A stretch of DNA of 21,695 nucleotides, from positions 1-21,695 of the IMG/VR virus record IMGVR_UViG_3300009032_000047. One strand, given 5' to 3'. Shown one piece after another: positions 3,517-18,991 of the stretch (within the stretch, counting starts at the first letter, position 1; each line of letters opens with the position of its first letter). A model generated the notes under the pieces. It searched no databases. It was given only the letters and a program-made list of their open reading frames with translations, and was not told where the DNA came from. The position numbers and the translations under genes were made by a program. Source of the DNA: a virus.

Positions 3517-3837
3517 ATGTCAAAAGTAGAATCAACTCCGGAGAATAAGATCCGGCACACCCAGTTTACCCAGGCGTTCTCGATGGCGTTTGAGGATAAG
3601 TTCGAGATGAAGTACCACCATCAGGGAGGTAAAGACGGAAGTCCGTTGAAGGCGTTCCTGATTACGGCCCCCGATGTGACCTGCGAGCAGTTCATTGCTG
3701 TCGCTAAAGCCTGTTGGTCTGGCAATGACAATTGGTTGAAAGGGATCAGTTCTATTTCAGATCTCTGCGACCGATGGAACAGAGCTGTGATGAAGTACAA
3801 TCCGGCGGCGAAACAAAAGGAAGGTGGCGCTTGGTGA
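3517..3837 (+). CDS. Small replication-module protein, possibly a replisome-organiser remnant
   Basis: A 106-residue protein directly upstream of, and overlapping, the DnaC-like loader. I do not recognise it firmly. The C-terminal half has the spacing of hydrophobic residues and tryptophans (AKACWSG, then DNWLKG, then a helix with DRWN) seen at the C-termini of phage replication initiators or replisome organisers, which sit immediately before dnaC-like genes. The match is by eye and the DNA-binding N-terminal domain of those proteins is absent. The start lacks a Shine-Dalgarno sequence and shares the ACCAATCAA leader, 4 nt from the ATG, with the ATPase gene. The gene opens after a 26-bp gap, so it may begin a translational unit with the loader and helicase. 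Confidence 0.72.
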   Translation: MSKVESTPENKIRHTQFTQAFSMAFEDKFEMKYHHQGGKDGSPLKAFLITAPDVTCEQFIAVAKACWSGNDNWLKGISSISDLCDRWNRAVMKYNPAAKQKEGGAW

Positions 3838-4439
3838 ACTGCATGCATTGCTACTGTTCTGGTGGACCTGTTTGCGGTTCGTGCTCGGAGGTTCACGAAC
3901 GTTGGTGGGGATTGGTTCTCCCTAAACCCAGTGTCTTTCGGAAGACTGAGATAGACCGGCTTAAAAGAGAATGGCCCGGGCTATCCTCAGCATACGATCA
4001 GGTGTTGGCCTGGACCCCTAAGAGCAAGAAAGGGCTTGTTCTCCACGGGGAAACAGGCCACGGAAAGACGCGATGTACGTGGGTGATGCTCCGGAAAGTG
4101 TACGATTCAGGATACCGGCTAAATGCATTTACCGGCACAGGGTTCGCCAACGATTGTTCCGAGGCGTTCTTTGCGGGGCATGGCGCTGAATGGTCGAGGC
4201 AAATCTCCAAGTGCGACATCCTGTTCATCGATGACATTGATAAGGCAAGTTTCACTGATCGTGTGTCATCTGAAATGTTTAACGTTATAGACTCACTTAC
4301 TTCAAACGGTGGGAAGTTAATCGTTACCACCCAAGTAAAAGGCCAGGAGTTTGTTGACCGGTTCAAAAACCAATCAACTGGAGAACCGCTTCGCCGAAGA
4401 ATCTCCGAGTTTTGTACAGCAATCCCGTTTAACCTATGA
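3834..4439 (+). CDS. DnaC-like AAA+ helicase loader with N-terminal cysteine cluster
   Basis: A 201-residue AAA+ ATPase. I place the start at GTG 3834, which overlaps the previous TGA (GTGA) and has a strong Shine-Dalgarno sequence, AAGGAAGGTGG, at 3817-3827. An ATG further upstream would run far into the previous gene. Five cysteines at residues 3, 6, 8, 14 and 17 form a CxxCxC and CxxC cluster likely to bind zinc, as in many DnaC-like proteins. Walker A is GETGHGKT (72-79); Walker B is ILFIDD (129-134). A basic LRRRI stretch at 186-190 could supply the arginine finger. It should load the DnaB helicase, whose gene overlaps its stop by 4 nt (ATGA at 4436-4439). Assignment as a loader rests on these motifs and on its position beside dnaB. 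Confidence 0.9.
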   Translation: MNCMHCYCSGGPVCGSCSEVHERWWGLVLPKPSVFRKTEIDRLKREWPGLSSAYDQVLAWTPKSKKGLVLHGETGHGKTRCTWVMLRKVYDSGYRLNAFTGTGFANDCSEAFFAGHGAEWSRQISKCDILFIDDIDKASFTDRVSSEMFNVIDSLTSNGGKLIVTTQVKGQEFVDRFKNQSTGEPLRRRISEFCTAIPFNL

Positions 4440-5839
4440 GTGATGACTGGATTATGCCAGAGGTGACCCCGATCTCCGGCAATAGCGCGTCGGTGGCAGA
4501 TCTACCGCCTCATAGTGAGGAGGCTGAGAAGGGTGTTCTTGGCTGTGTCATGGTGGCAAGTGAACCTGGATCAACGATGTCGGTCTGTGCGTTGACCTTC
4601 CCGTCTGGTGCTGACGTGTTCTACGTCGATGCCTGCCGGCTGACGTACACCGCGATGTTGGCGATGGTCGAGGCTTCAGTTTCGATTGATGTCATCACGC
4701 TATCGAACCAGCTGAAGAAGGCTGGTGATTTGGATAGGGTTGGCGGCCTAGCCTTCCTGACCGGGCTTCAGGATGCGACGCCGAGCGCTGCTAACCTGGG
4801 CCACTACGCTTCGATTGTATCGGAGAAGTACACCCGGAGGCGTGTCATTGCTGAGGCTGTCGCGCTCATTGGGTCGGCCAAGGCTCCAGGGTCAACCATT
4901 GGAAGCATCGACCTTGGGGTTTCGTTGGTGGCGATGGCCGCCTCTGCGGTTGTTAAAAAGAATCACACGATCAAGGAGTTGACGAGATGTGTTATCGATA
5001 AAGTAAGCGAAAAACACAATTCTCCTGAGCCAACGGGGCTTATGACAGGGATCTACAGGTTCGACGCGATGACTGGAGGATTGACCAATACTGACAAGTG
5101 GGTCATTGCGGCCCGGCCATCCATGGGCAAAACGGTGATGGGTGCCACGATCTGCAAAAACGTAGCCTTTCGACACCTAGACCGTGGAATGGCTTCCTTT
5201 ATGACCTTGGAAATGTCTCCGGAGCAGATAACTCAAAGGATGGTAGCAAGCGAGGCCGAGCTTAATTTCAGGGACATCAGGTCATTTAAGGAGGACGAGT
5301 TCCGTAAGTTAACGGTAGCCTGTGCGAAGATCGGCAAGGCGAACATAAACATCCTGTCTGCGCGAGGGTGGGGGATGCTTCAAATCATCGCCCAAGCCAA
5401 GGCATGGAGGGCGGACAAGGGCCTATCGGTTTTGGTAATTGACCATTTCGGCCTAATCCAAGCGCCAGACTTCGGTCGCCGCCGGCCAGACCCGGTTGAG
5501 GTGGCCACGTACAACAGTCGCAGGATGGCGGACCTGTGTGAGGCGGCTGGATGCCCGGTCATCATTTTACACCAGATGAACCGCAGCGTTGAGTCGAGGT
5601 CTTCCAGTGATCCGAAGATGAGTGATCTATCGCAGTCTGGTGCCATTGAGCAGGATGCGGACCTTGTCAGCTTCCTGTACCAACCGGACGGCGGTGCAGA
5701 CGGGAGGGTTCACGAGCCCACGGTCAAGACGATGATGACGGTTACGAAAAACCGTGACGGTGAAACTGGAAGCATTCCACTTTTGTTTTTCAGACGATGG
5801 TCAGTTTTCAGGGATGCTCCTGTTGACATTCCAGATTGA
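4436..5839 (+). CDS. dnaB: Replicative DNA helicase, DnaB family
   Basis: A 467-residue DnaB-type hexameric helicase, close to the bacterial length. The N-terminal domain starts near residue 23 with the typical PHSEEAEKGVLG stretch, where cellular DnaB proteins have a PxxxxAExxVLG pattern. The C-terminal RecA-like domain has Walker A ARPSMGKT (226-233), Walker B LVIDH (333-337), a HQMNR segment (379-383), an SGAIEQDAD motif IV-like stretch (401-409) and KNRDGETG (438-445), whose Arg440 matches the finger in DnaB KNRxGxTG motifs. It would unwind the fork 5'-3' and recruit primase, though no primase gene is in the window. It starts in a 4-nt ATGA overlap with the loader gene and has no obvious Shine-Dalgarno sequence, so translation is probably coupled. 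Confidence 0.95.
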   Translation: MSDDWIMPEVTPISGNSASVADLPPHSEEAEKGVLGCVMVASEPGSTMSVCALTFPSGADVFYVDACRLTYTAMLAMVEASVSIDVITLSNQLKKAGDLDRVGGLAFLTGLQDATPSAANLGHYASIVSEKYTRRRVIAEAVALIGSAKAPGSTIGSIDLGVSLVAMAASAVVKKNHTIKELTRCVIDKVSEKHNSPEPTGLMTGIYRFDAMTGGLTNTDKWVIAARPSMGKTVMGATICKNVAFRHLDRGMASFMTLEMSPEQITQRMVASEAELNFRDIRSFKEDEFRKLTVACAKIGKANINILSARGWGMLQIIAQAKAWRADKGLSVLVIDHFGLIQAPDFGRRRPDPVEVATYNSRRMADLCEAAGCPVIILHQMNRSVESRSSSDPKMSDLSQSGAIEQDADLVSFLYQPDGGADGRVHEPTVKTMMTVTKNRDGETGSIPLLFFRRWSVFRDAPVDIPD

Positions 5840-5895: not shown

Positions 5896-6204
5896 ATGAA
5901 TAACGATCCGAGTGATACGAGTGATCAAGTGATTGGCCTGGTTAATTCGCTTCTGTTGCAGAAGCGAGAATCCATTAACAGGATGGAACAACAAGTTGAG
6001 GTCACCACCCTGAATCTCAGGCTGGTCATACAGAAGGATGGTGGGAAGACCACCTACAAAGCGAGGCTTAAAATATCCAACGGGGATGACAATGTCGAGA
6101 TCATCCGAGGGGAAAGTGGGGAATGCATTGGTCAGCCAAAGTTTGGTCGTAAGATCAAGGTTGCTCAAAACAAACCCGAACCGGCCACTGCGGTTCAGTC
6201 CTAA
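5896..6204 (+). CDS. Hypothetical protein, 102 residues
   Basis: Not recognised. The N-terminal 25 residues are acidic and helical, followed by a Lys/Arg/Glu/Gln stretch and then alternating beta-type segments from about 38 to 90 (VTTLNLRLVIQ and ARLKISNG with polar turns). The tail is basic then Ala/Pro-rich and looks disordered. A small beta-barrel or nucleic-acid-binding fold would fit but is not shown. It begins after a 56-bp A/T-rich gap with an inverted repeat, so it may open a new transcript or translational unit. There is no Shine-Dalgarno sequence. The next gene, a KH-domain protein, starts 14 bp after its stop. Confidence 0.7.
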   Translation: MNNDPSDTSDQVIGLVNSLLLQKRESINRMEQQVEVTTLNLRLVIQKDGGKTTYKARLKISNGDDNVEIIRGESGECIGQPKFGRKIKVAQNKPEPATAVQS

Positions 6205-6218
6205 CCAGAACAAACCTG

Positions 6219-6800
6219 ATGAATAACATCGTTGACTTGGTTGGTAAGGTCGTTAGGTCAATGGCCGTTCACCGCTCCGATGTTGACGTCACGGTCGTTG
6301 AATCATCGGATGCCGACACTGTGCTCATCACGGTGTCGGCAACTGACATGCCTAGAATTCTTGGCCGAAGGGGCAAAACGTATTCGGCAATTAAGAGGCT
6401 GATTGAGTTGGTGAATCATCCTGTTCGGAATAAAGTTTACCAGCCATGCGGACAGTTGTTCCAAAAAAAGGGGACCATTCAGTTGGGGCTGCCAACTCAG
6501 AACTACATTAGCGGACCAATTAAAAGCGAAGATGCCAAAAGTGTGGTTGGCTTGGTTCGGTCGATCATTGATTCTATTGACAACTGTGGAGAGTTAAGTG
6601 TTTCAATCGCAGATCAAGGCCACATTGCGGTGGTTAATGTAGAGTCTGATATACCGCTAACGGGTGAATCGGTACAGATCACATCCAAGATTCTGTCGGT
6701 GGTATCAATGACTGTCGGGAAACACATCACAATAAATGCAGGTCCAAGAAATCAACGGGGAGCCACTGAGGTTCCACGTTTTGAGTCAGACCAGATCTGA
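6219..6800 (+). CDS. KhpA-like KH-domain RNA-binding protein, apparently tandem
   Basis: A 193-residue protein. Residues 7-66 follow the layout of bacterial KhpA: an opening helix, two strands with VDVTVVES and DTVLITVS, then DMPRILGRRGKTYSAIKRLIELV, where GRRG (49-52) is the RNA-gripping GxxG loop and the AIKRL helix follows as in KhpA. Residues 105-173 repeat the same order (helix, two strands, loop, helix) but have LTGE (147-150) where GxxG should be, so the second copy looks degenerate. KhpA proteins bind RNA with little sequence preference and, with KhpB, affect translation and sRNA stability; the role in a phage is unknown. The last 65 nt overlap the SWIM gene. The first KH unit is convincing by motif; the second is inferred from layout. 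Confidence 0.75.
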   Translation: MNNIVDLVGKVVRSMAVHRSDVDVTVVESSDADTVLITVSATDMPRILGRRGKTYSAIKRLIELVNHPVRNKVYQPCGQLFQKKGTIQLGLPTQNYISGPIKSEDAKSVVGLVRSIIDSIDNCGELSVSIADQGHIAVVNVESDIPLTGESVQITSKILSVVSMTVGKHITINAGPRNQRGATEVPRFESDQI

Positions 6801-7074
6801 AAGGCTACACCTCGTTGACCTAGAAGAATGGGGTGGGTCTGGCGTTTGCTCGTGTGAAACGTTCACCTACCGGACACTACCGAAAGTTTTCAAGGGAGAA
6901 AAGAAGCAGGGGTATGGGACCGATTGCAAACACATCATCGCAGCAAAGGTTTTCTTCGCTGAAAAGATCATCAAACAGATCATTCAAGTCAGCAAGGAAG
7001 CCGGCGCTTTGGCTAAGAGCAAGAGGGCTTTGGTTCTCAAAGAAGCCAAAGTCCAAGATGAGGACCGGTTTTAA
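6736..7074 (+). CDS. Stand-alone SWIM zinc-finger protein
   Basis: A 112-residue protein with the SWIM signature CxC...CxH: Cys38-Ser-Cys40 and Cys64-Lys-His66, with about 23 residues between. Two strands precede it (LRFHVLSQ and RLHLVDLEEW), as in SWIM domains, and an Ala/Lys-rich helix follows. SWIM modules bind DNA or protein and are found fused to bacterial SNF2 helicases, in transposases and in recombination mediators. Here the module is nearly the whole protein. The ATG at 6736 lies within the KH gene, giving a 65-nt overlap; the strands encoded in the overlap belong to the fold, so a later start would damage it. It may serve the SNF2 or recombination proteins encoded just downstream. 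Confidence 0.85.
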   Translation: MQVQEINGEPLRFHVLSQTRSERLHLVDLEEWGGSGVCSCETFTYRTLPKVFKGEKKQGYGTDCKHIIAAKVFFAEKIIKQIIQVSKEAGALAKSKRALVLKEAKVQDEDRF

Positions 7075-7339
7075 AAGGAAACCAACGGATCCTATCTACA
7101 AGAAATCAAGGGTTGAGTTCTTGCTAGCCAATCCGGTTTGTGCGTGCGCGAAGGAACTTGGTTGCAAAATGAAATCAACTGATATTCACCACATGCATGG
7201 CCGACTTGGTAAGCTTTTGAACGATCAAAGCAAGTGGCTGGCAGTTTGTCGTCAAGGGCATGATTGGATTGGCAGCAACATCAGCAAGGCAAGGGAGTTT
7301 GGTTGGATTTGTGAAAAAGGATTATGGAACAAACAATGA
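7058..7339 (+). CDS. Small HNH-type nuclease-like protein
   Basis: A 93-residue protein of the small phage HNH type. Cysteines at 28, 30, 36 and 64 and the stretch DIHHMHGRLGKLLND (residues 42-56) followed by WLAVCRQGHDWI (60-71) give the usual His-His, Asn and His pattern: His44/His45, Asn55 and His68. The ending REFGW matches the general plan of these proteins. HNH enzymes cut DNA with one metal ion and in phages act in packaging, repair or homing; which applies here is not visible. I chose the ATG at 7058, which overlaps the SWIM stop by 17 nt, because upstream codons in this frame encode arginine-rich noise antisense to no motif. Its stop overlaps the resolvase ATG. Confidence 0.78.
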   Translation: MRTGFKRKPTDPIYKKSRVEFLLANPVCACAKELGCKMKSTDIHHMHGRLGKLLNDQSKWLAVCRQGHDWIGSNISKAREFGWICEKGLWNKQ

Positions 7340-7857
7340 TCATTGCCTGGGATCCAGGAAATTCCGGGGGATTCGCTGTTAAAGAGGGTGGAGTTATTCA
7401 CGTCGTTCCAATGCATGACGACGAGTCCATGTTGATTGGTTTCCTGAAATCGCTTCATGATCGCGGGCATCGGACAGTCTGGTACGAGAGCCAGACGTAT
7501 TGCACTGGTGTTCGGGTTTCAGCGTTCACGATGGGTAGGTTTGGTGAGGGCCTTGGATTCTGCCGTGGCGTCATGGCTGCAATTGGTTTCAATATCATTC
7601 CAGTTACGCCACAAGCGTGGCAAAAGCATCTTGGAATCCAGAAGGGTGAGAAGATGAAGAAGAATAAGGGGATGACCCAGGCCGAACGGGATGCAGTGGA
7701 CGCTCACAACGCTCCGTTAAAAGTCAAATGGAAGAATGACCTTAAGGAAGCTGCGATCAAATTCTTTGGGGGTAAGCTAACGCTTAAGACGGCTGATGCT
7801 GTTCTTGTTTTAAAGTACGCAATCGAGAAGGAAATAGCCAATGGAACCAAACGATGA
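7336..7857 (+). CDS. RuvC-like Holliday-junction resolvase (RNase H fold)
   Basis: A 173-residue protein starting MIIAWDPGNSGG, the first strand of RuvC-type nucleases with the catalytic Asp6. Glu51 in WYESQ and Asp154 in TADAVLV supply the next acidic residues. PVTPQAWQKHLG near 89-100 resembles the Pro-x-x-Trp-x-x segment of phage and poxvirus resolvases. It would cut branched DNA left by recombination or replication before packaging. Two starts are possible: ATG 7336, in a 4-nt ATGA overlap with the HNH stop (chosen because this junction type is the norm here), and ATG 7324, four codons earlier, close behind an AAAGG. The C-terminal part, with many Lys residues between 105 and 140, is an insertion compared with bacterial RuvC. 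Confidence 0.85.
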   Translation: MIIAWDPGNSGGFAVKEGGVIHVVPMHDDESMLIGFLKSLHDRGHRTVWYESQTYCTGVRVSAFTMGRFGEGLGFCRGVMAAIGFNIIPVTPQAWQKHLGIQKGEKMKKNKGMTQAERDAVDAHNAPLKVKWKNDLKEAAIKFFGGKLTLKTADAVLVLKYAIEKEIANGTKR

Positions 7858-13030: not shown

Positions 13031-15451
13031 ATGGGCACGTTCATCAAAGCACTCGAAAAAAAGGGGTATTCCCCTGATTTGCTCAAGAAGAAGTTCGAAT
13101 CGCCTAAAGCTTCTGAACCGAAGATCGATGAACTGATCACTCGGCACATGAACATTCTCAGGACGAGCGTGTCGCAGACTTTCGAGGAGGCCAGGTTGTT
13201 CCGTGCTGTTGACATGGCCTACGATGCACCCAAGGATCAGACTACAGCTACCTTCGTTCGGGACCTGATGTCCGGCCAGAAGTCTGCGAAAGAAGTCCAT
13301 TCTGCTTTGGTGGCTTACGGGTTGAAGGACCTTCTCCGGTTGGATGTATTGATCAATCCGACCACAAAGAAGAGTGAGATTGTAGACATCCCGACATTCT
13401 GGGGCATCTTTGTTCCGTTCGTGATGGCCTATGTGAAGTTTCGGTGGGCGAAACTGTCCACTGAGCGGGACACCTACCCAACCTACAAATACGAGCCTGC
13501 GGTCCTTTCAAGGAAGACCAAGCTTCAGTGTGATATTGTGACGTCTGCTGTTGAGAGGATGTCATCCAGCATGGGCTACGGTGCAATGGAGACCCAGACC
13601 ATTCTGCCTGCTTTGCTTTACGGAAAGTCGTTCACGTTCGCGGCTTCGGAGTACTTCACGGAGTCAAGGCCGTACATGGAAGGTGGGGAATTCAAGCAGA
13701 AGGTCGTAAAGGAGGGCATTTTGTACGTCTGCCCGCACACTGCCAAGGTGTTTTACGACCGGGCTCATCCACTGTACTCGCTCAACTCTGATACTGGTAC
13801 GAGGTACGCTGGATACTTTGACATCGTTCGGTATTCGGAAATCAAGAATGACGAGACATTCTGGAACCGAGACAAGATCTCCTACGGGGCAAACACAGGT
13901 GGATGGTTCAACTATTCTGGATACGAATCCTACTCTGGATTTTATCCGTGCCAGGCAAAGATCCCCAATCCTTCCGCTTTACTGTCGACAAACCAACGGG
14001 AAGAAAAGGGATTCATGTACCAGTCCGGTGACATGGATTCCGGGGTTTCAAGGGCAGTAATTTTCGAGAAGATTGTACCGAAGGACTGGGGTCTGTACGA
14101 CTACGACCAGCCTGTCTGGCATCGGTTCATTTACGCTGGCGATTCCACTTGTATCCATGTGGTTCCTTTCGCTTACAACCCTTGTGCTGTAACGCTTTAC
14201 GACTACGACGCTAACCGAGACATCAACGCCTCGTTGGCGCTTGAGCTGATCCCTCATCAGGATCACATCAGCAACCTGATGTCGCAGTACCTTCTCGCGG
14301 TTAAGAGCAACCTGGCGAACCTAATCTTGCTGGACAAGAACGTGATTTCAAAGGAGGATGTTGATAAACTTCAAAACAAAGGTCAACAGTTCTTCAATGG
14401 TTTGAATTTCCTGCGAGTTGACAAGACAAAGATTGGGTACGGCGGTTCTGCTGATACCCGGTCTGCGGTCGATAAGTTCCGGTTCGACATGTTGGACACA
14501 GGTTCCATCTTGGTTGCGATAAACACCCAGATCCAGATTATGGAACGGTTGTTGGGGTTCACTCCGCAGGAGGTTGGGACATCGGCGACCCACGAACAGT
14601 CGGCAAAAGAAGTAACCATTGTCCAAGGGTTCGCGTCGACCAGAACCCAGTTCACCGGTGGATTCATCGATGCTGCCAGGTTTGCCCGTAAGCGGTCGAA
14701 CTACGAAGCCCTGATGGAGTACGGATCAAGCGAGATCTTGGCCGAGGTTGCGGTGTCCAATGATGCCGACCAGAAGACGCTGGAGGACATCGGATTTAAG
14801 GTTGGAGAGCAGATTCCAGGTTCCGATCTTCGGGTCGTTACCGGGGATACTTCAATGCTTGACCTGGACGGTTTCGCGTCTAGCCGGGATGGGGACAAGC
14901 GGATTGTGGAGGATCGGGTTGGTGTGGCGATGATCCAAGCGTTCACGGTGGTAGCGCAGAACCCGGCCTTGCTTGAAGCTGTTGGTCCACAGAAGCTTCT
15001 TGAACGGTTCAATGACTCTTTGGAATACCTCGGAGTCCCGAAAATGTGGCGGTTTATTGATAAATCGGATGAAAAGGAAGCGAAACCCAAAGTGACCGCT
15101 GAAGAGGTGGTGAAGATTGTCAAGGCTGGCATGGAAGAGGTCGAGAAGCGGATTGCCGGCGGGATCAAGGAGGGAGTCGTGGACCCGCTCGCCAAGGCCA
15201 ACCAGGCGACCCAGTCTGTGATCGGTGGGATCGGGCAAGAAGTGGCCAAGGTCACCGCCCAGGTTGCTGATCAAGGACAGGCGTTGAGTCAGGTGATGCA
15301 ATTCCTGCAATCGATAGGTCAGCCACAGCCACAGCCACAGCCGCAGCCCATGCAGCAGCCGCAGATGGAACCTCAGACGCAAGATCAGATTAACGCCCAA
15401 GCTATTCCGATTGCTCAACAAATCATTCAAAATGTTACTGGCGCGGCATGA
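13031..15451 (+). CDS. Portal protein (head-tail connector)
   Basis: An 806-residue protein assigned as portal from its size and its place between terminase and scaffold/capsid genes. It also has a portal-like plan: a mixed alpha/beta body, long helices around 410-450, and the segment GFTPQEVGTSATHEQSAKEV (530-549), which resembles the stretch before the wing helices in portals of large podovirus-type and related phages. The C-terminal 130 residues contain a Lys/Glu helix, a helix of Gln/Val/Ala, and a Gln-Pro tandem tract. A portal of this length lies at the long end. It forms the dodecameric ring through which TerL pumps DNA. No Shine-Dalgarno sequence is visible, and the stop overlaps the next start (ATGA). 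Confidence 0.8.
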   Translation: MGTFIKALEKKGYSPDLLKKKFESPKASEPKIDELITRHMNILRTSVSQTFEEARLFRAVDMAYDAPKDQTTATFVRDLMSGQKSAKEVHSALVAYGLKDLLRLDVLINPTTKKSEIVDIPTFWGIFVPFVMAYVKFRWAKLSTERDTYPTYKYEPAVLSRKTKLQCDIVTSAVERMSSSMGYGAMETQTILPALLYGKSFTFAASEYFTESRPYMEGGEFKQKVVKEGILYVCPHTAKVFYDRAHPLYSLNSDTGTRYAGYFDIVRYSEIKNDETFWNRDKISYGANTGGWFNYSGYESYSGFYPCQAKIPNPSALLSTNQREEKGFMYQSGDMDSGVSRAVIFEKIVPKDWGLYDYDQPVWHRFIYAGDSTCIHVVPFAYNPCAVTLYDYDANRDINASLALELIPHQDHISNLMSQYLLAVKSNLANLILLDKNVISKEDVDKLQNKGQQFFNGLNFLRVDKTKIGYGGSADTRSAVDKFRFDMLDTGSILVAINTQIQIMERLLGFTPQEVGTSATHEQSAKEVTIVQGFASTRTQFTGGFIDAARFARKRSNYEALMEYGSSEILAEVAVSNDADQKTLEDIGFKVGEQIPGSDLRVVTGDTSMLDLDGFASSRDGDKRIVEDRVGVAMIQAFTVVAQNPALLEAVGPQKLLERFNDSLEYLGVPKMWRFIDKSDEKEAKPKVTAEEVVKIVKAGMEEVEKRIAGGIKEGVVDPLAKANQATQSVIGGIGQEVAKVTAQVADQGQALSQVMQFLQSIGQPQPQPQPQPMQQPQMEPQTQDQINAQAIPIAQQIIQNVTGAA
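15320..15365 (+). repeat. Gln-Pro-coding tandem hexamer tract in portal gene
   Basis: Repeats of the hexamer CAGCCA/CAGCCG, about five units followed by decayed copies, encode a Gln-Pro run near residue 765 of the portal. The run is likely a flexible C-terminal tail. Such tracts change length easily by slippage. Confidence 0.75.
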
Positions 15452-17233: not shown

Positions 17234-18991
17234 ATGGCAACGGCAGATCTATTTCAGAAGTGTGTTCCGGCGGTAGCGCTGGGTCGTCAAAACTGCGGGG
17301 CGTTCACGGAATTCGACATCAGTCCAACTGGTGCCGGTGAGCTGGACGACATCTACAATGACGCGGAAGGCAAGTTCCGGGTCCTAGGTGGAATCATCCA
17401 GGCTGATCTGGAAGGCAACATGTGCCAGATCCGCCAGAATTCGCTCGCTACACTCATTGAAGCAACCTCGCGTCCGATGGATACGAGGAAGCTGAACTTC
17501 GACAATCTCCCTAACTCAAACAAGGAGATTCGTCCGTTCGTGATGATTGGTAGGAATGGCCCGATCAACAACAACTATTGGGACATTTCCGCCGGAGCTC
17601 CGTCGGCAGCTTTTACCCCTCCCGCGCTTCCTGTCCCCGCCGCCGCCCCTGATCCGGCTTTGGGTAACTACACCTACAGTTTCCGGGCGGCTTCACAAAC
17701 CGGAATTCCTCCGTCCATTGATTGGTTCCCGCCCCGTTCTGTGGTGATGATCACCAGCCAGACGGGTGGCGGTTCCACTACCCGTACCAACTGGAAAGTG
17801 ATCCAAGCGGTCGCTTCCTCGACGTACGTTACGGTTTACGCTGTCAGCCAGAACGCGAATGCGGCCTTGGTTGCCAACCGGACCGCCTACCCTGCTTCTG
17901 GCGTCGGCATTCGTAGCACCCCTAACGTGGACAGCTACGAAGCGTATTGCAATCAGATCCCGTCCTTGAACACTAGGCAAATGTACCCGGCGTTCTTTGG
18001 TGAGACGCGGGTCACGTGGTGCATGGATGATCAGGTTGAGAAGTATTACTCGGCGCTCAGGGCCGGTAATCCGTTCTTCAAGGAGTTCGGAGAAGTCGAT
18101 TCCGTCATGCGGAACAAGCAGGTCTTCGAAGACTTCAAAAACCGTGAGGTCCATTCCTTCTTCTTTGAGAAAGCTCTCCCGAACCAGGACATCAACAACT
18201 GGGGTCTGTTGGAACCGATCACGTCCATTGATGGATCGTTGGTCACCAACTACCTGAACTTCCCCGGCATCTTCGGTAGGAACATGGGTCGTCGTGCGAA
18301 TCCTGTTGGTATTTACGAACAGCTGGCTTCTTGCGGGTCTGTCATTGATCTCCAAGGTATTGTGCTCAACCTACCTGAGTTGTTTGAGCGGTTCTACCTT
18401 ATGAACCGTGTTCGTAAGGACAACGGGAATACTTCCAACGTCATCGAGGTTGTCACGGATAGTGCATACGCCATCAAGCTCCGTCAGGGGCTGTTGCGGT
18501 ACAAGAAGAACCGGTTCGAAGGATTGCTCCAGGTCAACGAGCCGATCAACAGTCTTCAGTCCGTCAAGACGAAGCTTGGCTTCAACTTCGTGGACATCGA
18601 GCTTGACCGTCCCGCTGGAGTCATTCTCCGCATTGTCACTTCTGAAGCCTTGGACGATTGGCTGGACGCCCACAAGCGTGCGGCTGGTGGCATCAGTAAC
18701 AGCGGCCGTCTCCTGCTCGCTCTTGACCTTGGCAACTCGATCTACAAGTCCGTAATCGAATCGGCCACGGTGATGCACAAGTCGGCCAACATCGATCAGA
18801 TGGCCGCCATCAATGGATCTGCTTTCTGTGCGGTTAAGCTCCCGGAACGGTCCATGAAGATCATGACTACCAAACGCGCTTACGTTGTGGATTGCCCGTT
18901 GGCTTCCCTCTGGATTGAGGGTATCGCCGACCTTGTGCCGGAACATTGCGGCGCTTCTGGTAATGCGTTGGATCTCGGTGGAGCTGTCTAA
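17234..18991 (+). CDS. Putative major capsid protein
   Basis: A 585-residue protein after the scaffold-like gene and before surface-type Ig proteins, the usual place and approximate size for a major capsid subunit of a large-coat phage. I did not identify a conserved motif by sequence, so the call is positional plus composition: few Lys clusters, no signal peptide, an alternating alpha/beta body, and a regular C-terminus with strands such as FCAVKLPERSMKIMTTKRAYVVD. Residues 119-232 hold an Ala/Pro linker followed by a Ser/Thr/Val-rich beta stretch that could be an inserted surface domain. It lies after a 35-bp gap with an inverted repeat. The start lacks a Shine-Dalgarno sequence. A tail or other head protein cannot be fully excluded. 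Confidence 0.66.
   Translation: MATADLFQKCVPAVALGRQNCGAFTEFDISPTGAGELDDIYNDAEGKFRVLGGIIQADLEGNMCQIRQNSLATLIEATSRPMDTRKLNFDNLPNSNKEIRPFVMIGRNGPINNNYWDISAGAPSAAFTPPALPVPAAAPDPALGNYTYSFRAASQTGIPPSIDWFPPRSVVMITSQTGGGSTTRTNWKVIQAVASSTYVTVYAVSQNANAALVANRTAYPASGVGIRSTPNVDSYEAYCNQIPSLNTRQMYPAFFGETRVTWCMDDQVEKYYSALRAGNPFFKEFGEVDSVMRNKQVFEDFKNREVHSFFFEKALPNQDINNWGLLEPITSIDGSLVTNYLNFPGIFGRNMGRRANPVGIYEQLASCGSVIDLQGIVLNLPELFERFYLMNRVRKDNGNTSNVIEVVTDSAYAIKLRQGLLRYKKNRFEGLLQVNEPINSLQSVKTKLGFNFVDIELDRPAGVILRIVTSEALDDWLDAHKRAAGGISNSGRLLLALDLGNSIYKSVIESATVMHKSANIDQMAAINGSAFCAVKLPERSMKIMTTKRAYVVDCPLASLWIEGIADLVPEHCGASGNALDLGGAV

Follow-up and report, generated by a model that had tools for sequence, protein, structure and literature searches.

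The window, a 21.7-kb virus record, encodes a DnaB replicative helicase, UvrD-type and SNF2 helicases, a RecF/SMC-like ATPase, a Holliday junction resolvase and a terminase. Within its block of replication genes, after DnaB, lies the gene for a two-part, KhpA-like protein of 193 aa, and a 102-aa ORF sits between the two (Table 1). In the structural region, the large ORFs at 13031-15451 and 17234-18991 matched no Pfam family, and the second of these no PHROG either; by position they are probably the portal and the major capsid protein. The portal and DnaB of the window, used as queries against IMG/VR, found no match, and the terminase found one record, which was left out, so that no new locus was added. 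The phage seems only distantly related to known groups. A clear Shine-Dalgarno motif is absent at most of the starts at 3517, 4436, 5896, 6219, 6736, 7058, 7324 and 7841, and this may say something about the host.

Table 1. Coordinates of the KhpA-like gene, its parts and the neighbouring genes in the window.
Feature	Position	Strand	Basis
DnaB replicative helicase, upstream	4436..5839	+	PF03796, E 5.8e-58
102-aa ORF just upstream	5896..6204	+	coding-like by codon statistics; no Pfam or PHROG match
Two-part KhpA-like protein gene, 193 aa	6219..6800	+	ORF; codon statistics back the frame to ~6735
N-terminal KhpA-type KH-II domain, aa 1-72	6219..6434	+	Pfam, own profile, model
GRRG (GxxG) loop, aa 49-52	6363..6374	+	sequence; model
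Linker, aa 73-100, may hold the last KH strand	6435..6518	+	model, pLDDT mostly <50
Second domain, aa 101-178, possible degenerate KH, acidic	6519..6752	+	model; VIA-align; charge
LTGE, aa 147-150, at the expected place of GxxG	6657..6668	+	sequence
SWIM zinc-finger-like ORF	6736..7074	+	PF04434, E 7e-4, 19.5 bits vs cut-off 19.6
HNH endonuclease-like ORF	7058..7339	+	phrog_2323, E 1.8e-7
Holliday junction resolvase	7324..7857	+	phrog_1770, E 1e-14

When codon statistics were trained on genes of the window itself, this frame alone looked coding between 6219 and ~6735, through both halves of the protein, and a frameshift hidden in the A7G4 run at about 6462 was therefore ruled out. After ~6750 the codon signal moves to the frame of the SWIM-type ORF; because this overlapping ORF takes over there, the last ~20 residues of the 193-aa protein are less certain. 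The last 65 bases of the KhpA-like gene also belong, in a different frame, to the SWIM-like ORF.

The first half of the protein is readily assigned. Residues 6-71 matched the Pfam family PF13083 (KH_KhpA-B) with an E-value of 7.7e-11 and 42.2 bits against a curated cut-off of 32.1, and the domain scanned alone scored 44 bits. Our own KhpA profile, made from fetched bacterial KhpA sequences (44 bacterial KhpA loci were fetched), gave 54.7 bits for this half and an hhalign probability of 98.6%; some of the KhpA search queries were only approximate, and the conclusions rest on the fetched sequences. For structure prediction with AlphaFold2, 39 bacterial and viral KhpA domains were aligned. Because a full-length KhpA alignment placed the last KhpA strand on the second half of the window protein, the aligned relatives were trimmed ahead of this last KH strand before modelling. 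In the resulting model aa 1-60 have block-mean pLDDT values of 88-97, and the GRRG motif stands where helix 41-48 meets helix 50-66, as in KH-II domains, with pLDDT >90 at this point; the strand after the GxxG helix, ahead of which the relatives had been trimmed, is predicted only at residues 86-90, behind a low-confidence loop. A single-sequence AlphaFold model was set aside (pLDDT 31.6). Basic residues lie in and after the GRRG loop (R50, R51, K53, K59 and R60), and the KH half as a whole is basic, with a pI of 9.8, against 5.1 for the acidic second half. K59 and L61 stand where pneumococcal KhpA has R59 and I61, so that L61 places a hydrophobic residue at the dimer position held there by I61 (PMC6403258). 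That the first half has the KhpA layout with GRRG, as the original prediction proposed, is borne out by the Pfam score above cut-off, the profile match and the intact motif.

Direct relatives of the window protein were not recovered: queries with the full-length protein or with one of its halves found no homologue in the INPHARED phages (one search gave only chance-level matches, E 7-10) or in IMG/VR, and the 193-aa ORF had no meaningful match in PHROG. Among KhpA proteins the best identity found was 39%, to a Hydrogenedentota locus, and in a KhpA tree the window protein, on a branch of length 2.04, has no settled position. KhpA genes are present in other phages nonetheless. A search of 50,697 phage records with a KhpA query turned up 12 matches, and in the complete jumbo phage Tunturi_5 the product gp147 scores 54 bits to PF13083 and is encoded a few kb from a replication helicase. 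Two unverified faecal scaffolds named 'Bacteriophage sp.' (MT835475 and MT835581) were rejected, since ffh and rpsP lie beside khpA in both, with rimM and trmD also in one, so that they look like host DNA in the stretch read; other short unannotated records among the 12, including Listeria and Enterococcus, were set aside uninspected as likely bacterial.

An IMG/VR search with a KhpA alignment gave 27 loci (L050-L076), and tblastn found none of ffh, rpsP, rimM or trmD in the stretches fetched for them. Two conserved gene orders account for 19 of the 27. The first, GroEL-KhpA-ParB/DNA methylase-terminase, is seen in full in L051, L053 and L066-L068, without the terminase in L059 and L065, and without GroEL in L057, L069, L070 and L074, the incomplete cases all being short or cut stretches. 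The second, Hsp20-KhpA-endonuclease VII-like, is seen in L054, L055, L058, L060-L063 and L073, and is followed by a large protein of a 556-aa type, except in the truncated L062; L054/L055 and L060/L061 are identical or nearly so, which makes for fewer independent cases. One further locus, L064, has the order DnaB-KhpA-5'3' exonuclease and is in layout the closest to the window. The first order places a protein chaperone, GroEL, beside KhpA, a possible RNA chaperone, and in the second a chaperone, Hsp20, is again the neighbour.

The retention of phage KhpA in conserved gene orders argues for a selected function in phages. A KH protein in a phage had been considered unexpected, a view that Tunturi_5 gp147 and the 27 loci, 19 of them in these two phage gene orders, contradict; judged from sequence, the window's KhpA is not the only one carried by a phage. 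The search for phage homologues that had been suggested with the original prediction thus found single-domain KhpA in at least two other phage groups, and the second domain of the window protein in none of the other phage KhpA proteins. It is very improbable that the gene was recently picked up from a bacterium, or is host contamination, and has no phage role. KhpA is common in bacteria, but this gene lies between phage replication genes and resembles them in codon use, its best identity to a KhpA is low and its branch very long, and the ffh-rpsP-khpA context of the two contaminant scaffolds is absent from the window. This divergence and this gene context already largely refute such an origin.

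The second half was harder to place. No match was found in Pfam up to an E-value of 10, and no homologue of this half in INPHARED phages or IMG/VR. Scored with our KhpA profile it reached only 4.5 bits, a value that 33 of 2000 shuffled sequences equalled or bettered, and with a wider KhpA profile 4.1 bits (148 of 5000 shuffles as good); with this wider profile none of 368 tiles from the window's other proteins reached 4.1 bits. The best other stretch in the window against the KhpA profile was the start of the 102-aa ORF, at a chance-level 3.7 bits. Comparison of the second half with KhpA by hhalign returned a probability of 1.2%, and blastp produced no alignment between the two halves. On these tests, which are at best marginal, the second half has no significant sequence relationship to KH.

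AlphaFold2, which had no aligned relatives for this half, predicted a helix at 103-119, strands at 126-133 and 136-143 and a helix at 149-166, with pLDDT 61-67. In the model the element order of the first half recurs, minus the helix before GxxG and with the last strand unassigned. In a structure comparison of aa 99-178 by VIA-align, most of the matches were type-II KH domains from ribosomal protein S3, and Thermus thermophilus KhpB was also among them (Z 6.8-7.8, with an rmsd mostly of 2.5-3.5 over ~77 residues); OsmC and YiiP domains score as well as KH-II in this comparison, and the tool warns that Z <8 may reflect only a common arrangement. A fold match to Thermus phage P23-45 was rejected, as no KhpA-like ORF was present in the 45 kb of P23-45 that were read.

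Two readings of the second half have to be weighed on this evidence. It may be a small alpha/beta domain with no relation to KH, such as a module that docks onto DnaB or some other protein of the phage, with the likeness to KhpA confined to the first half, and we hold this to be only a little short of an even chance. The lack of a significant sequence link to KH, the equally good fit of OsmC and YiiP domains to the model, and the absence of the domain from the other phage KhpA proteins all speak for it, while the element order is that of KH-II and KH-II domains dominate the structure-comparison list. Alternatively, that the second half is a degenerate KH domain is a reasonable guess from the model, at about even odds. 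The original prediction of a KH copy devoid of GxxG agrees with LTGE, with the acidic charge and with the similar order of elements in a model of moderate confidence, and finds no significant link in sequence; the structural comparison of the halves proposed with it shows a second half compatible with KH-II, qualified by the tie with OsmC and YiiP and by the modest pLDDT. Overall the observation is partly confirmed: it holds for the first half of the protein and may hold for the second.

Taken together, the KH-II profile match, the model with an intact GxxG, the continuous coding signal and the place after DnaB are best explained by a phage-encoded KhpA-type protein, predicted to bind RNA, that carries an extra C-terminal domain, a reading to which we give a probability of roughly 0.6. 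Most likely the predicted activity is that of a phage RNA-binding or RNA-chaperone protein. The basic KH domain would use GRRG and the helix that follows to hold short single-stranded RNA. The second domain, acidic and without GxxG, would not bind RNA and would instead pack against the KH domain or against another subunit, a structural role that fits its charge and the missing motif. In the pneumococcus, KhpA homodimerises by way of its last helix and also forms heterodimers with KhpB (PMC6403258), and the second domain could perhaps take the place of the KhpA or KhpB molecule that pairs with bacterial KhpA, serving as a fixed partner or docking surface; a built-in dimer is a plausible though conjectural reading of the two-part protein. 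During infection the protein might work on early phage transcripts or on small RNAs of the host, either as a small RNA chaperone or as a post-transcriptional regulator. Such a role could, as the original prediction proposed, retune host translation or sRNAs.

Single-stranded DNA can be a ligand of KH-II domains too. A different role has to be considered in this light, in which the KH domain would engage ssDNA or primer RNA at the replication fork beside DnaB and would not regulate transcripts. DnaB is encoded two genes upstream and the resolvase downstream, L064 has KhpA between DnaB and an exonuclease, and gp147 of Tunturi_5 is likewise near a replication helicase. Against this, the two large groups of phage KhpA adjoin GroEL or Hsp20 and late genes rather than replication genes, and the characterised KhpA proteins bind RNA, the pneumococcal KhpA/B complex having been reported to bind tRNAs and sRNAs (PMC7196914). 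We therefore regard the replication role as unlikely. More tentatively, and with clearly less confidence than the RNA-binding reading itself, the window protein may be a KhpA-type dimer made into one chain, with an RNA-gripping KH domain and a degenerate, GxxG-less KH domain as mere partner, and may belong to a wider, undescribed habit of phages of carrying their own KhpA RNA chaperone, often beside GroEL or Hsp20, to manage RNA in infection.

In bacteria not dependent on Hfq or ProQ, KhpA and KhpB are candidates for the role of general sRNA-binding protein. We found no paper in the literature that describes a phage KhpA, and the versions conserved in at least two phage groups would therefore offer a handle on whether phages use this system to manage RNA. 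The two-part form would test whether both units of a KhpA dimer can be joined in a single chain.

Among known systems, NusA and KhpB (Jag/EloR) also have more than one RNA-binding-type domain per chain, and in structure the window protein weakly matches NusA and T. thermophilus KhpB, though its second half has no sequence match to either. NusA and KhpB have further domains (S1 in the one, Jag-N and R3H in the other), none of which is seen in the window protein. Bacterial KhpA (YlqC; PF13083), for example that of S. pneumoniae, B. subtilis or M. tuberculosis, shares with the window protein a KH-II domain with GxxG in the order helix-strand-strand-helix-GxxG-helix, the first half being 30-39% identical to the best bacterial matches over ~60 aa. 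Bacterial KhpA is ~75-95 aa long and single-domain in nearly all loci read, whereas in the 193-aa window protein the KH domain is followed by another 95 aa, and the putative last KH strand lies beyond a loop. Tunturi_5 gp147 and the 27 IMG/VR proteins are likewise single KH domains without the second half, and most of them adjoin GroEL or Hsp20; in these phages, as in the window, the domain is of the same PF13083 type, and in L064 it has a DnaB neighbour too.
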